DNA of 60,403 bases from Bacillota bacterium (GTDB lineage: Bacteria; Bacillota; Sulfobacillia; JAJYWN01; JAJZPE01), in contig JAJYMC010000065.1 in assembly GCA_021787335.1 (NCBI GenBank), positions 1 through 60,403 on the forward strand, in the 5' to 3' direction. This document shows positions 45,707 to 51,811 of the stretch, piece by piece. Below the pieces are notes generated by a model. It was not told the DNA's origin. It ran no database searches and was given only the letters and a program-made list of their open reading frames with translations. The first letter of the stretch is position 1; each line of letters opens with the position of its first letter. The position numbers and the translations under genes were made by a program.

Positions 45707-46348
45707 TTGGCACAAGACATCAAGACCGGGGGCAGACGGGGCCGGTCTCCGAAGGCCGTCCTCAAGGCCCGCAAGGAACCGGGCTATCTGGAGATCATCT
45801 GCGGCAGTATGTTCAGCGGCAAGTCGGAGGAACTCATCCGCCGGGCCAAGCGCGTGTTCATCGCCCGCAAGCGGGTCGTGGTCTGCAAGCCGAAGATCGA
45901 CACGCGCTACGGGCATCGTCGGGTCAGTTCCCACGACGGCAAGAGTCTCAGGGCCCACTCCATCGATCAGTCCCGGCCCGAAGACATCCTGACCCTCGCG
46001 GCGACCAAGGATGCCGATGTCATTGCCATCGACGAGGTGCAGTTCTTCGGGGCCGAGATCATCCCGGTGGTGCAGAGACTGGTGGAGGCGGGACGGCGGG
46101 TCATCGTCGCCGGCCTGGACATGGACTTCGCCGGGCGCCCGTTCGGCAGCATGCCGGTCCTGATGGCCCTGGCCGATGAGGTGACCAAGCTCAAGGCGAT
46201 CTGCGTCAAGTGCGGCGAACCGGCCACGTTCAACCAGCGCCTGATCAACGGGCGGCCGGCGGCCATCGACGACCCGATCATCGTCATCGGCGGTAAGGAG
46301 AGCTACGAGGCGCGGTGCCGCCGCTGCCATGAAGTCGCGCGGAAGTAA
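45707..46348 (+). CDS. tdk: Thymidine kinase
   Basis: It phosphorylates thymidine in the salvage pathway. The P-loop is [18 protein letters not shown], Walker B is IAIDEVQFF, and the zinc site cysteines are CVKCGEPA and CRRCHE. From TTG 45707 it is 213 aa. TTG follows GGGGGGAGGGG, and the in-frame ATG at 45686 lies within the predicted -10 element. The N-terminal 25 residues are basic and unconserved. It heads the run of SBP, MutL-like and KOW genes, though those may have other promoters. Confidence 0.94.
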
Positions 46349-46409: not shown

Positions 46410-48047
46410 GTGAAACCATCCGTGGGGAAGACCGTGTTGACCGCCGCCGGGCTGGTCGCCGCCATCGGTGTCCTGGTCGGCCTCATCGTCGCCGGGTCCA
46501 GGGTGCTGGTGGCCCATGGGCGCCCCGCGGGCACGGTGGCCATCGGGGTGCCCTATCGCCTGAAGTCCCTCGACCCGTTGGGTCAGCCCCTTGACCTCAA
46601 CCAGCCGGAGGCCATCAGCCCGTTTCGCCTGGTCTACGATACCCTGGTCATCACCGGACCGGACGGCCGGCTCTATCCGCATCTGGCCTCGCGATGGGAG
46701 GTCTCGCCCGACGGGCGTGAGATCACCTTCCAGTTGCGCGAGGCCCGCTTTCACGATGGGCGGCCGGTGGACGCGGCCGCCGTCAAGTACACGCTGGCCA
46801 GGCTCATGTCCGACGACAAGGCCAAAGCCCTGGCCGCGGCGCTGGGGCCGCTGAAGGACATCGTCGTCCTGGCCCCGGACCGCGTCAGGCTGGTCTTCGA
46901 GCGGCCTTACCCGCCCATCTGGAGCGTCCTCTCATGGTCCGGCCTGGGCATCGTTGCCCCGCCGGCGGCCGGCCGCCCGGCCGCGGACGCCGTCCTGGGC
47001 CCCCCGGGGAGCGGCCCCTACGTCCCGGTGAGCTGGTCGGAAGACACCCTGGTCCTCTCGCGGAACCAGGACTACCACTGGCTGCCGCCGTTCGCCAGGG
47101 ACACGGACGGCCCCCGTCTCGAGAAGATCACCTTCCGGTTCCTGCCCGAGCCGGGCGCCCGGCTGGCGGCCTTTGAACATGGTCAGGTGGACCTGGCCGA
47201 GCTCGATCAGGCCGACTACGCGAAGGCCTCCACGTTCGCCGGGGCGGAGCTTCTCCTGGTCCCCCGGCCGTCCCTGACCTATCTGGGATTCAGGGTGACG
47301 GGTGGGAACGCGGTGGGAGAGGCCGTCCGTGAGGCCGCCGCGCGAGCCGTCGACCGGGTGGCCATCCTCAAGGCCGCGGCCGGTCCGGCCCGGGCGGAGA
47401 CGTCAATCCTGCCGGTCGGCATGTGGTCCGTCGAGACGGGGCGGGCCCCCCAATCCGTCCGCTACAGCCCGGAGAAGGCTCGGTCGGTCCTGGCCGCCGC
47501 GGGCTGGAAGGACCTGGACGGCGACGGCCGGTTGGAGAAGCCGGGCCCGGGCGGGTCGCAACCGGAGAAGTTGAAGCTGGAGATCCTGACATACGGCTAC
47601 GAGTGGGAGCGCAAGGTGGCCACCGAGGTGGCGGCCGAGCTGCAGGCGGTGGGTATCGACGCGTCGGTCACCCCCCTGGAGCCGAGGGAGGTCCTCGGAC
47701 GCACGCGGGACGGCCAGGCGGGCGCGTTCGTCCTGACCTACGGCTGGTATGACCCGGACATCCTCTTCTACCTGTTCCATTCGTCGCGCCTCGGGCAGAC
47801 CAACCGCTCGGGCCTGACCGACCCGGCCATCGACCGGGCCCTGGAGGAGGCCCTCCAGGTCGTCGAGCCGGCGGCGCGCTCGGAAGCCTACGCCTCCGTC
47901 GCCAAGGACATCCAATCGAGCTATGTCTGGGTACCGCTGGCCGGTCAGACGACGCCCGTGCTGGCGCGACGGAACCTGGCCGGCCTGTCCGTCGGCGGGG
48001 CCGACGAAGTGCTCCTCTACGGTGCCTATGCCCGGCCCGGGCGTTGA
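46410..48047 (+). CDS. ABC-type solute-binding protein (family 5), no permease nearby
   Basis: The 545-aa protein is of the DppA/OppA type. An N-terminal membrane segment (about residues 8-30) has no lipobox cysteine, so it is probably membrane-anchored rather than a lipoprotein. Family features include GTVAIGVPYRLKSLDPL, LVYDTLVITGPDGRLYP, LASRWEVSPDGREITFQL and FHDGRPVDAAAVKYTL. GTG 46410 has GGGAAGG upstream. No ABC permease or ATPase lies in the window. Substrate unknown. Confidence 0.9.
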   Translation: MKPSVGKTVLTAAGLVAAIGVLVGLIVAGSRVLVAHGRPAGTVAIGVPYRLKSLDPLGQPLDLNQPEAISPFRLVYDTLVITGPDGRLYPHLASRWEVSPDGREITFQLREARFHDGRPVDAAAVKYTLARLMSDDKAKALAAALGPLKDIVVLAPDRVRLVFERPYPPIWSVLSWSGLGIVAPPAAGRPAADAVLGPPGSGPYVPVSWSEDTLVLSRNQDYHWLPPFARDTDGPRLEKITFRFLPEPGARLAAFEHGQVDLAELDQADYAKASTFAGAELLLVPRPSLTYLGFRVTGGNAVGEAVREAAARAVDRVAILKAAAGPARAETSILPVGMWSVETGRAPQSVRYSPEKARSVLAAAGWKDLDGDGRLEKPGPGGSQPEKLKLEILTYGYEWERKVATEVAAELQAVGIDASVTPLEPREVLGRTRDGQAGAFVLTYGWYDPDILFYLFHSSRLGQTNRSGLTDPAIDRALEEALQVVEPAARSEAYASVAKDIQSSYVWVPLAGQTTPVLARRNLAGLSVGGADEVLLYGAYARPGR

Positions 48048-48164
48048 GGGGCCGCGGCAGGTGTCATCGCCGTGGGCGCGATGTTCGGTGGCCCGAAACT
48101 TTGGCCCCCTTCGCGCGTAGTACGGGGCGAACCCGCAAGGTGGATCAAGGAAGGTGACGTTTGG

Positions 48165-50006
48165 ATGGTCGACGAACGGCGAATCGGCTCGATTCTGGCG
48201 ACGGACGTCGGTAGCACCACGACCAAGGCCGTCCTCATCGAACAGAAGGACGGCGAATACCGGCTGGCCGCCAGGGGAGAAGCCCCTACGACCGTCGAGG
48301 CGCCGCACGAGGACGTCATGATCGGCGTGCTCGAGGCCATCCGCCAGGTCGAAGCGGAGACCGGCCGGGTCTTCCTCGAAGGGAGCCGGCTGATCACTCC
48401 GCGACAGGACGGCCGCGGCGTCGACGTCTTCGTGTCCACCTCCAGCGCCGGCGGGGGTCTGCAGATGACCGTAGCCGGCTTGGTCAAGGCGATGACCGGC
48501 GAGAGCGCCCAGCGGGCGGCCCTCGGTGCGGGGGCCATCGTCATGGACGTCATCTCCGTGGACGACTCCCGCCTCGTGGTCGAGCGCATCCGTCGCCTGA
48601 AGGAACTCCGCCCCGACATGATCCTGCTTTCCGGCGGCACCGACGAGGGGAACATCTCGGGCGTCGTGGCGCTGGCTGAATACATCGCCGCCGCTGGGCC
48701 ACGGCCCAGACTGGGCGGCGATTTCCGCGTTCCCGTCATCTACGCCGGCAACGAGAAGGCCCGCGACTATGTCCAGGACACCCTGGAGGGCGTCTGCGAC
48801 GTCCACTTCGTCGAGAACATCCGGCCGAGCCTCGACCGGGAGAACCTCGAGCCGGCGAGGGCGGAGATCCACCGGCTCTTCCTGGAACATGTGATGGCCA
48901 AGGCGCCGGGCTACGCGGCCCTCCTGGACTGGACGGCCCACCGGATCCAACCGACCCCGATGGCCGTCGGGAAGATGATGCGGCTGGCCTCGGATCGCTA
49001 TGGCGTCAACATCCTGGGGGTCGACATCGGCGGCGCGACCACCGACGTCTTCTCCATCGTCAACGGCGTCTTCAACCGGACGGTCAGCGCCAATATCGGG
49101 ATGAGCTACAGCCTGGCCAACGTCCTCGTCGAGGCCGGTCCGGCCAACATCGCCCGCTGGGTGCCGGGGGCCGCCTCCGAGCGAGACCTCCGCAACTGGG
49201 CGGCGAACAAGATGATAAGGCCGACGACGCTCCCGGAGGACCAGGAGGAACTGCTCCTCGAGCACGCCACGGCCCGCGAGGCCCTGCGCCTGTCCCTCGG
49301 GCAACACCACCAACTGGCGGTCACCCTCAAGGGCGTCCAGCAGAAGCGGACCTTCGACGATGCCCTGGAGCAGAAGATGAACGGCCAGCCTCTGGTCAGG
49401 ACGGGGGTCGTCGACGTCATCATCGGCAGTGGCGGAGTGATCTCCAACGCCCCACGGCGTTCGCAGGCGGCCCTTATGCTGCTCGACGCCTTCGAGCCGG
49501 GCGGCATCTGCCGGCTGTATGTCGACAGCATCTTCATGATGCCGCACCTGGGCGTGCTGTCCGAGGTTGATCCGGCGATCGCCCTCGAGGTCTTCGAGAA
49601 GGACTGCCTCGTTCCCCTGGGCACCTGCGTCGCCCCCATCGGCCGGGCCCGTCCCGGCGACGTCCTGGCCACCATGACCGTGACCATGCCCGACGGGAGC
49701 AGCCGCAAGGAAGAGATCAAGGGCGGGACGCTCAAAGTCGTCCCCCTGGCGACCGGGCAGCAGGCCAAGGTGGTCATCGACCCGGCTCGCGGGATCGACC
49801 TCGGGCGAGGCCCCGGGCGCCGGATCGAGGGAGAGGTCGGCGGTGGCGTGGTCGGGCTCATCCTCGATGGACGCGGCCGGCCGCTGGCCTTGCCGCCGGA
49901 CGCGGAGCGCCGGAGCCAGGCCCTGCTTGAATGGTGGAAGGCCCTCGAAGCGTATCCGGCCGACCGCGTGGGCCGGAACGAGGGCCCGGAAGGGAGGGCT
50001 CACTGA
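48165..50006 (+). CDS. MutL/GlmL family ASKHA ATPase
   Basis: The 613-aa protein has two actin-like phosphate loops, ATDVGSTTTKAVLIE (about residue 12) and GVDIGGATTDVFSIV (about 285). They and the rest (SAGGGLQMTVAGLVKAMT, LLSGGTDEGN, VDVIIGSGGVISNAP) match the MutL family of glutamate mutase. In clostridia GlmL helps B12-dependent mutases, possibly as a reactivase. No mutase subunit (glmS/glmE or similar) is present in the window. ATG 48165 follows GGAAGGTGA; a GTG at 48072 would add 31 residues. Its stop overlaps the next ATG (ATGATG-type coupling). Confidence 0.88.
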   Translation: MVDERRIGSILATDVGSTTTKAVLIEQKDGEYRLAARGEAPTTVEAPHEDVMIGVLEAIRQVEAETGRVFLEGSRLITPRQDGRGVDVFVSTSSAGGGLQMTVAGLVKAMTGESAQRAALGAGAIVMDVISVDDSRLVVERIRRLKELRPDMILLSGGTDEGNISGVVALAEYIAAAGPRPRLGGDFRVPVIYAGNEKARDYVQDTLEGVCDVHFVENIRPSLDRENLEPARAEIHRLFLEHVMAKAPGYAALLDWTAHRIQPTPMAVGKMMRLASDRYGVNILGVDIGGATTDVFSIVNGVFNRTVSANIGMSYSLANVLVEAGPANIARWVPGAASERDLRNWAANKMIRPTTLPEDQEELLLEHATAREALRLSLGQHHQLAVTLKGVQQKRTFDDALEQKMNGQPLVRTGVVDVIIGSGGVISNAPRRSQAALMLLDAFEPGGICRLYVDSIFMMPHLGVLSEVDPAIALEVFEKDCLVPLGTCVAPIGRARPGDVLATMTVTMPDGSSRKEEIKGGTLKVVPLATGQQAKVVIDPARGIDLGRGPGRRIEGEVGGGVVGLILDGRGRPLALPPDAERRSQALLEWWKALEAYPADRVGRNEGPEGRAH

Positions 50007-51391
50007 TGGCCATCGCCCGTCAGCTTCGCCCGCTCAAGGGCACGATCATCCGGCGTGAACGGCTGCTGCCGTTGCCCGGCGACGTCCTCGTCACGGAAGG
50101 CCAGGACGTGGCCGCCGACACGATCATCGCCAGGACCGAAGAACTGCCGGGGGAGCCCTATGTCATCGACCTTCGGGCCGAGCTGAAGGCCCCGAAGTTG
50201 GCGGCCGAAGACGTCGACCGCGCCGTCCTGAAGAAGGTCGGGGAGCAGGTCAAGGCCCAGGAGGTCATCGCTCGGCACAGCCACGGCTTCTGGGGCGAGG
50301 TGGCCACCTGCAAGTCCCCGGTGAGCGGGACGGTCGAGTTCATCTCCCGCTCGTTCGCCCGGATCCTGATCCGGGAGGACCCCCGTTCCGCCCAGCCGAC
50401 GGCCATCGTCGCGGTGGCCAGGAAGCTGGATGTCTGGCCGTCCAGCCTGAAGACCTACATGCGTTTCCGCGAAGGCGATGAGGTCCGCCAGGGGATGGTC
50501 CTGGCGGCCAGCCCATCGACGGCCGGGATGGACTACGCCTATTCGCCCATCAGCGGGATCATCGAGAAGGTCTGCACGAAGACGGGGACGGTGACCATCG
50601 TCCGACCGGTGAAAGAGACGACCGTTGACGCCTACTTCGCCGGCCGCGTCGAATCGGTCATCCCCGAGCGCGGGGCGGTCATCGCCGCCACCGGGACGCT
50701 CATCGAGGGCGTCTTCGGGATCGGCTTCGAACACCACGGGCCGCTGGCCGTTCTGACCCGCAGCCCGGAGGAGGACCTCGACCCGGCGGCGATCACGGAC
50801 GCCCACGAGGGCAAGATCATCGTCGCCGGCCGGCGCGTGACCCTCGAAGGCCTGCGACGGGCGGTCGATGCCGGCGCCTGCGGGGCCATCTGCGGGGGAG
50901 TCGACAACCTGGACCTCGTCGAGTGGTTGGGCCAGGAGATCGAGGTCGGCATCACCGGCCAGGAGGACGTGGACTTCACCCTCATCCTAACGGAAGGCTT
51001 CGGGGCGACGCCGATGGACGAAGCGGTCTTCGCGACGCTGTTGGCCGCCGACGGCCGGGTCTCCTCGGTCAATGGCTCGACGCACGTGCGGGCCGGGGTC
51101 ATCCGTCCGGAGGTCGTCATCGTCGGCCCACCGGCGGGCCTCGGCGAGTCGGGCACGGCCGAGGCCGGGACCGCCGAATGGGGCGGTGCGGCGCGGCTGG
51201 AGCCGGCCCTGGTCGAGGGGGCTGCGGTCAGGTTGGTCGGGCCGCGGCGGTTCGGCCAGCGCGGACAGGTGGTCGAAGTGCCGGCGGAGCGACAGGCCCT
51301 CGGCACCGAGGCCCGCGTCAAGGTGGTCCGCGTGCGGCTTGAAGATGGGACGGTCATCAGCGTGCCGCAGGCCAATGTCGAGGTGCTCTGA
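50006..51391 (+). CDS. Uncharacterised multi-hemimotif/KOW protein paired with MutL-like ATPase
   Basis: The 461-aa protein is soluble by appearance. The N-terminal half repeats lipoyl/barrel-sandwich-like pieces, for example LKGTIIRRERLLPLPGDV, SPVSGTVEFIS and YSPISGIIEKV. No biotin/lipoyl Lys motif (such as MKM) is seen. A middle part (GRRVTLEGLRRAVDAGACGA to TEGFGATPMDEAVF) is alpha/beta-like. A C-terminal KOW-like stretch ends the protein (VRLVGPRRFGQRGQVVEV to ISVPQANVEVL). The ATG overlaps the MutL-like TGA and has AGGGAGGG ahead, so the two should be made together. Function unknown. Confidence 0.85.
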   Translation: MAIARQLRPLKGTIIRRERLLPLPGDVLVTEGQDVAADTIIARTEELPGEPYVIDLRAELKAPKLAAEDVDRAVLKKVGEQVKAQEVIARHSHGFWGEVATCKSPVSGTVEFISRSFARILIREDPRSAQPTAIVAVARKLDVWPSSLKTYMRFREGDEVRQGMVLAASPSTAGMDYAYSPISGIIEKVCTKTGTVTIVRPVKETTVDAYFAGRVESVIPERGAVIAATGTLIEGVFGIGFEHHGPLAVLTRSPEEDLDPAAITDAHEGKIIVAGRRVTLEGLRRAVDAGACGAICGGVDNLDLVEWLGQEIEVGITGQEDVDFTLILTEGFGATPMDEAVFATLLAADGRVSSVNGSTHVRAGVIRPEVVIVGPPAGLGESGTAEAGTAEWGGAARLEPALVEGAAVRLVGPRRFGQRGQVVEVPAERQALGTEARVKVVRVRLEDGTVISVPQANVEVL

Positions 51392-51565: not shown

Positions 51566-51811
51566 ATGGCGACACGTTGTGACATCTGCGGTAAAGGCCC
51601 CATCACCGCTCGGAGGATCATCCGTCGCGGCGCGGCCAAGCGGCGCGGCGGGGCCGGTCAGAAGATCACCGGTTCGACCCTTCGGCGCCAGTATCCGAAT
51701 GTGCAGACGGTGCGGATCGTGGTCAATGGGACGCCACGAAAGCTGACCGTCTGTACGAGTTGCCTCAAGGCCGGTAAAGTTGAACGGCTCCGGATGGGAG
51801 CCAAGGTCTGA
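51566..51811 (+). CDS. rpmB: 50S ribosomal protein L28
   Basis: The 81-aa L28 protein starts MATRCDICGKGPITARRI and has TVRIVVNGTPRKLTVCTSC. Two CxxC pairs (CDIC and CTSC) indicate a zinc-binding form. It is about 20 residues longer than B. subtilis L28, with an Arg/Gly-rich insert. ATG 51566 follows GGAGAG; ATG 51551 would add five residues. In Bacillus the gene is beside spoVM; here it is 40 kb away. Confidence 0.96.
   Translation: MATRCDICGKGPITARRIIRRGAAKRRGGAGQKITGSTLRRQYPNVQTVRIVVNGTPRKLTVCTSCLKAGKVERLRMGAKV

Follow-up and report, generated by a model that had tools for sequence, protein, structure and literature searches.

Closest described systems

The diol and glycerol dehydratase reactivases (DdrAB, GDR; PDB 1NBW) combine an ASKHA ATPase that carries a swivelling domain with a second subunit, and in the glycerol dehydratase reactivase the ATPase domain is coupled to the swivelling domain, which binds and releases a subunit upon ATP hydrolysis (PMC7674605). 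Here we describe two adjacent genes at positions 48,165 to 51,391 of a 60,403-nucleotide stretch of DNA from a Bacillota bacterium of the class Sulfobacillia (contig JAJYMC010000065.1, assembly GCA_021787335.1; the whole stretch is called the window below). They encode a MutL/GlmL-family ASKHA ATPase and a partner protein with a swivelling domain. These two folds, together with the fixed linkage of the family to membrane genes, lead us to propose with moderate confidence that the two proteins form a reactivase-like, ATP-driven remodelling pair serving a membrane complex.

The pair differs from DdrAB and GDR in that its swivelling domain lies on the partner chain, separate from the ATPase and together with barrel-sandwich and KOW domains, and no dehydratase was found near it in the gene lists inspected. 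With GlmL (NF040745), Or-4 (NF040744) and the Pfam family MutL (PF13941) the window ATPase has in common the ASKHA core (residues 10-481) and the nucleotide motifs, but its scores stay under half of either equivalog cutoff, and it has an extra C-terminal domain and a partner of the family F0, lies near no mutase and falls in a separate clade. Partner residues 47-129 have the fold of the N-terminal barrel-sandwich of RnfC and NqrA and weak profile matches to it, whereas beyond this domain there is no match to an Rnf or Nqr equivalog. Residues 209-375 have a fold in common with RraA and with swivelling phosphohistidine domains (Z 9-10), although the partner has no conserved His. Among the neighbours, DUF6754 (PF20539) is adjacent to it at 38 of the 104 partner loci, among them contig C7 of the window's genome, but does not lie beside the window copy. 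In the literature nothing was found on DUF6754, PF20539, PF13941, TIGR01319 or the pair, which does not prove that nothing exists, and for GlmL no relevant function paper was found beyond mutase metabolism.

The ATPase and its partner gene

A first-pass annotation of the window had described the first protein as a GlmL-like ASKHA ATPase and the two genes as overlapping by one base and probably made as a unit. Both statements agree with the following features.

48165..50006, + strand: MutL/GlmL-family ASKHA ATPase, 613 amino acids (aa); ATG at 48165, stop TGA at 50004-50006
48204..48227, + strand: phosphate-1 motif D14-V-G-S-T-T-T-K21 of the ATPase; D14, G16, S17, T18, T19 and K21 in 32/32 aligned homologues
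49023..49052, + strand: phosphate-2 motif DIGGATTDVF, residues 287-296; GGATT in 35/35 homologues, D287 and D294 in 29/35
49425..49436, + strand: adenosine motif GSGG, residues 421-424; G421, G423 and G424 in 35/35 homologues
49990..49998, + strand: ribosome-binding-like run AAGGGAGGG ahead of the partner start, read from the sequence
50004..50008, + strand: stop/start overlap TGATG; the A at 50006 is common to both genes (one base)
50006..51391, + strand: partner, 461 aa, family F0; ATG at 50006-50008, stop ending at 51391

The ATPase matches the whole of PF13941 (model positions 1-450 of 450) with an E value of 1e-122 and 410.6 bits, where the cutoff is 27, and its nucleotide motifs are intact. 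It does not reach the cutoffs of the GlmL (224.7 against 475) or Or-4 (216.1 against 600) equivalogs. The linkage to glutamate mutase (MutS/MutE) expected of a GlmL is also absent, as MutE occurs in none of the 104 partner loci searched by tblastn and the window's own genome has no PF06368 match. The C-terminal extension of about 130 aa is missing from mutase-linked GlmL proteins; partner-linked ATPases have a median length of 613 aa and other MutL proteins mostly 453-487 aa. A phylogeny of 74 MutL proteins separates 55 partner-linked ones from 19 mutase-linked or related short ones by one branch with a Shimodaira-Hasegawa-like approximate likelihood-ratio test (SH-aLRT) support of 100; it was built by a quick method, and the tool warned that L017, a long row, meets the opposite side of the split. 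The evidence is strong that the partner-linked ATPases are a non-mutase branch of the GlmL/MutL family. The long row belongs to a diverged pair of the same genome (L017 12350-15333, G000:C7:112350-115333) that closes an FtsX-type ATP-binding cassette (ABC) operon.

The ATPase gene lies immediately upstream of the partner gene, on the same strand, in 82/91 partner genes with a called upstream neighbour, and with so fixed an adjacency the pairing is far from chance. Neighbour counts of this kind are lower bounds, since contigs of metagenome assemblies end early and a home-made gene caller was used; antisense open reading frames (ORFs) in GC-rich DNA also displaced true genes during calling (e.g. 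the partner genes in L150 and L153). For this reason the main claims rest on the tblastn counts over the 104 loci, where MutL is found in 94, DUF6754 in the 38 already mentioned and FtsX-type ABC genes in eight records (seven distinct places). Ten partner loci have no MutL in the fetched stretch, and as all ten genomes carry one elsewhere the relation of ATPase and partner is likely to be obligate. In two Fimbriimonadales loci (L080 1447-3394, L099 9180-11089) the partner gene follows tatC directly and is itself followed by a response regulator, while the sole MutL of the genome lies elsewhere.

It could still be supposed that the window gene is an ordinary, mis-annotated GlmL beside a fortuitous neighbour, as its PF13941 membership would allow. 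The adjacency statistics already refute this, and the unlinked co-occurrence (10/10), the separate clade and the extra C-terminal domain also speak against it, which makes it the least credible of the readings considered here.

The family is widely distributed. A scan with one genome per species gave at least 577 confirmed partner loci, and the 79 retained from it came from Bacillota, Elusimicrobia, Armatimonadota, Planctomycetota, Nitrospira, Cloacimonadota, Bathyarchaeota, Culexarchaeum and others. Over the whole phylum, 31 of 398 genomes carry the partner (E up to 1e-20).

A MutL-family pair without a mutase

The window's own genome has six MutL-family genes. A partner homologue comes after each of five of them (in the window and on contig C7 at 54, 77, 82 and 112 kb). 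The sixth, on contig C17, has no partner and belongs to a gene cluster for ornithine degradation (Ord, OrtA, OrtB, OraE and Or-4, all above cutoff); with 633.2 bits and OraE beside it, this is the genuine Or-4 of the genome. The OraE cluster therefore uses another, partnerless GlmL, and none of the listed mutase matches falls on contig C50, which holds the window. Moreover, OraE, methylmalonyl-CoA mutase and MutE occur in none of the 104 loci. The view that the pair has no mutase near it, nor a mutase set linked to it elsewhere, is thus left standing. In the 61 related genomes MutL lies within about 120 bases of 23 of the 24 long OraE matches, and no partner match adjoins any of those MutL genes (match lists compared by eye). 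On contig C9 of the window's genome (G000:C9:40009-41852) there are also OraE matches in two pieces, which look like the alpha and beta subunits of lysine 5,6-aminomutase; no MutL match lies on that contig.

These data bear on the explanation that the pair is a reactivase for a not yet recognised cobalamin or radical enzyme whose gene lies in another part of the genome. Mutase accessory factors gave the MutL family its name, and in three Bathyarchaeota-type loci (L070, L073, L106) the pair is followed by an unnamed protein of 357-365 aa and then by a B12-binding radical S-adenosylmethionine (SAM) protein, with the membrane genes described below coming next in L073. B12-binding domains (PF02310) are present in 61/61 relatives and, being ubiquitous, they give no association; a B12 link by co-occurrence was rejected as uninformative. 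Against this explanation stand the absence of mutases from the 104 loci, the separate, partnerless clade of mutase-linked MutL proteins, and one genome (G028, 93% complete) that has the pair and the membrane genes but lacks methylmalonyl-CoA mutase, MutE and OraE/KamD, the only match to OraE there being a weak one to its B12 domain. We regard such an enzyme as an improbable client.

The partner protein

The partner scores below all Pfam and NCBIfam cutoffs and is thus in no curated family; profile and structure searches with the 461-aa protein gave no family either, in line with the first-pass annotation. An AlphaFold2 model made with 55 homologues as input has a mean pLDDT (predicted local distance difference test) of 89.6. 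The model and the profile matches agree on the architecture that had been read from the sequence, with barrel-sandwich repeats, an alpha/beta middle part and a KOW end. The domains are listed with their structural matches, among which Z scores near 8, taken alone, can reflect a common arrangement.

50144..50392, + strand: barrel-sandwich domain, partner residues 47-129; Z 8.7 to RnfC 8ahx_C (71 aa, root mean square deviation 2.9) and 7.9 to NqrA 8acw_A
50399..50629, + strand: second barrel-sandwich-like repeat, residues 132-208; separate NQRA_N match at 147-189
50630..51130, + strand: swivelling beta/beta/alpha domain, residues 209-375; Z 9.8 to RraA 1j3l_A (133 aa) and 10.3 to the rifampin phosphotransferase swivel 5fbu
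51203..51388, + strand: KOW domain, residues 400-461; Z 8.2 to NusG 1m1g_C (Z about 8 to NusG and Spt5), profile matches to SPT5/NusG KOW domains, E 9e-5 to SPT5

For the barrel-sandwich and KOW domains the sequence profiles agree with the model (RnfC_N; SPT5). RnfC_N is matched by 45 of the 55 homologues (E up to 0.01) and Biotin_lipoyl by 33, the window protein itself lying just under the Pfam cutoffs (NQRA_N 23.4 against 25; RnfC_N 22.0 against 25.6). The hairpin repeat is directly visible in the partner as GEQVKAQEVIA...SPVSGTVEFIS and GDEVRQGMVLA...SPISGIIEKVC. Short-form members of the family, of about 375 aa, contain a single copy, with an alignment gap where the second repeat lies.

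Two biochemical roles suggested by these folds were rejected. For a covalent biotin or lipoyl carrier a lysine would be expected in the hairpin between the half-motifs, and the only columns that reach 60% Lys (K17, K77, K270) lie outside it. As no His is conserved in the partner family, a phosphohistidine relay is not expected. A search of a viral library with the partner returned only small KOW matches.

A membrane module linked to the pair

Clustering of the neighbours revealed a recurrent gene order: F8, F3, ATPase, partner, DUF6754 (family F4), F7, F6, F5. The order of the last four is retained in 27/30. These four look like membrane proteins, two with multiple transmembrane (TM) segments and two TM-anchored with soluble domains, and only DUF6754 is in Pfam, where it has no function. 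The small proteins F3 and F8 match no Pfam family. In the 61 relatives DUF6754 and the partner are found together in 24 genomes, the partner only in six, DUF6754 only in none and neither in 31 (Fisher p 1e-11; 3e-9 when counted by family). The window's own genome has the full module in one row on contig C7 (G000:C7:73964-84958; L015 11839-19461, L016 885-4562), in the order F8, DUF6754, F7, F6, F5, ATPase, partner, F3, second ATPase, second partner. The link between pair and quartet is thus seen in both gene order and co-occurrence. In addition, sister lineages of the pair close FtsX-type permease ABC operons in seven genomes from five families, one of them the window's own genome (contig C7, 112 kb). 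As the conserved neighbours are membrane or transport genes, they favour a client in the membrane over a soluble enzyme or a ribonucleoprotein (RNP).

The model of DUF6754 has a TM part and a Rossmann-like part, and the structures similar to it include RCK/KTN gating domains and transhydrogenase domain III. Some DUF6754 proteins (e.g. in L103 and L100) have an N-terminal extension ahead of the first TM helix that looks like a signal peptide plus an extracellular domain. On this reading of the sequence the DUF6754 domain would be on the cytosolic side, where it could come into contact with the pair. A ClpP/crotonase fold had been considered for DUF6754 and was rejected, since the model matched Rossmann-type proteins instead; DUF6754 and F6 were also rejected as paralogues (hhalign probability 1.4%). 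Foldseek gave no match to the DUF6754 model at E up to 1e-3, and searching PDB sequences with the F6 and DUF6754 profiles gave nothing useful.

From its topology and neighbours the quartet looks like a transporter. The pair might then energise transport, the ASKHA ATPase driving a substrate through the quartet or controlling when it opens, rather than serving as a chaperone of its assembly. The likeness to gating domains and the pairs within ABC operons would suit such a role, as would the quartets that stand beside SBP_bac_5, M20/M24 peptidase-like, D-aminoacylase-like and other genes. However, many quartet copies are without an adjacent pair, the ABC operons already encode their own ATPase, and the fold likeness of DUF6754 is spread across many Rossmann proteins. 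Moreover, to our knowledge ASKHA ATPases are not transport motors. We therefore consider this role unlikely, although it is the strongest of the alternatives.

Proposed role of the pair

The remodelling pair that we prefer would work as follows. ATP binding and hydrolysis by the ASKHA protein would move the partner, which may be the client-gripping arm, and in this way a membrane complex would be assembled, reset or gated, much as a client subunit is moved by the ATPase and swivelling domains in the glycerol dehydratase reactivase. Barrel-sandwich and KOW domains are types that commonly make protein contacts. The window copy may be a duplicated pair for a transporter or a membrane electron-transfer unit, because its relatives adjoin a solute-binding protein, EtfBA or FtsX-type ABC genes. 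Physical contact with the quartet, ATP hydrolysis and the client are all predicted features. The first-pass annotation had suggested an ATP-driven chaperone for another enzyme or for an RNP; the mutase-free unit that it described is supported, while for the client the neighbours indicate a membrane complex in place of either.

Several observations weigh against the proposal. DUF6754 matches reach 27 in one genome of the same class (G016), where partners are far fewer, and because the quartet often stands alone, one dedicated pair for each quartet copy cannot be needed. The fold of DUF6754 points to no function. The window copy has no DUF6754 neighbour, and its membrane link runs through neighbours that vary between genomes (solute-binding protein, Etf, ABC). 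In the same genome, the ATPase of the paralogue at C7:112356 has degraded nucleotide motifs (ELGRAVTRAG, DIGAAGVDV). The likeness to reactivases is one of parts and not of sequence, and swivelling, barrel-sandwich and KOW folds are common. Client and mechanism are both inferred. DUF6754 matches are also amplified in three other genomes (10 in G049, nine in G033 and nine in G030).

More tentatively, the module may be an undescribed membrane system of bacteria and archaea, made of DUF6754 and three further conserved membrane proteins. An ASKHA ATPase and its barrel-sandwich/swivel/KOW adaptor would power or assemble this system, and the window pair would be one of its engines, duplicated and re-deployed. 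If true, it would be the first ASKHA-driven membrane machine of such a kind. A large and ancient mutase-free branch with its own partner and four membrane proteins turns DUF families into one testable system across bacteria and archaea, and raises the question of the role of a reactivase-type ATPase at the membrane. The name MutL, taken from glutamate mutase, would mislead metabolic reconstruction for the partner-linked branch.

Neighbourhood of the window copy

The window copy is a stand-alone paralogue without adjacent DUF6754-F7-F6-F5 genes, which its paralogue on contig C7 does have. Its immediate neighbours are:

46410..48047, + strand: SBP_bac_5 solute-binding protein, directly upstream of the pair; alternative start at 46329
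51566..51811, + strand: rpmB (ribosomal protein L28), downstream of the pair; its position beside the pair is not conserved in the family

The window copy lies between comM and dprA-topA, and in relatives of this copy the pair likewise sits between a YifB/ComM-type ATPase gene and dprA-topA. SBP_bac_5 has the same position beside the pair in L149 and L156, is near it in L150 and is present in L159, and EtfBA stands beside the pair in L151 and L152. In L150 a solute-binding protein and EtfBA both stand ahead of the pair and dprA-topA after it, and L156 retains the ComM-type gene together with the solute-binding protein.

The KOW end, like that of NusG, SPT5 and L24, and the neighbouring rpmB had been taken as a hint at ribosomes, and the pair could accordingly be a ribosome or RNP assembly chaperone. 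Yet rpmB adjoins the pair only here and in the order-level relative L149, and not in L150-L152, L154-L163 or the widespread module loci, so the hint is not borne out. KOW domains serve protein contacts too, and five paralogous pairs in a single genome fit poorly with such a task, which we consider very unlikely.

On the minus strand of the window, an open frame of 866 aa runs opposite the ATPase gene at positions 47403-50003. In this GC-rich DNA such antisense frames recur opposite MutL genes (cluster F14), and codon bias seems to produce them as an artefact.

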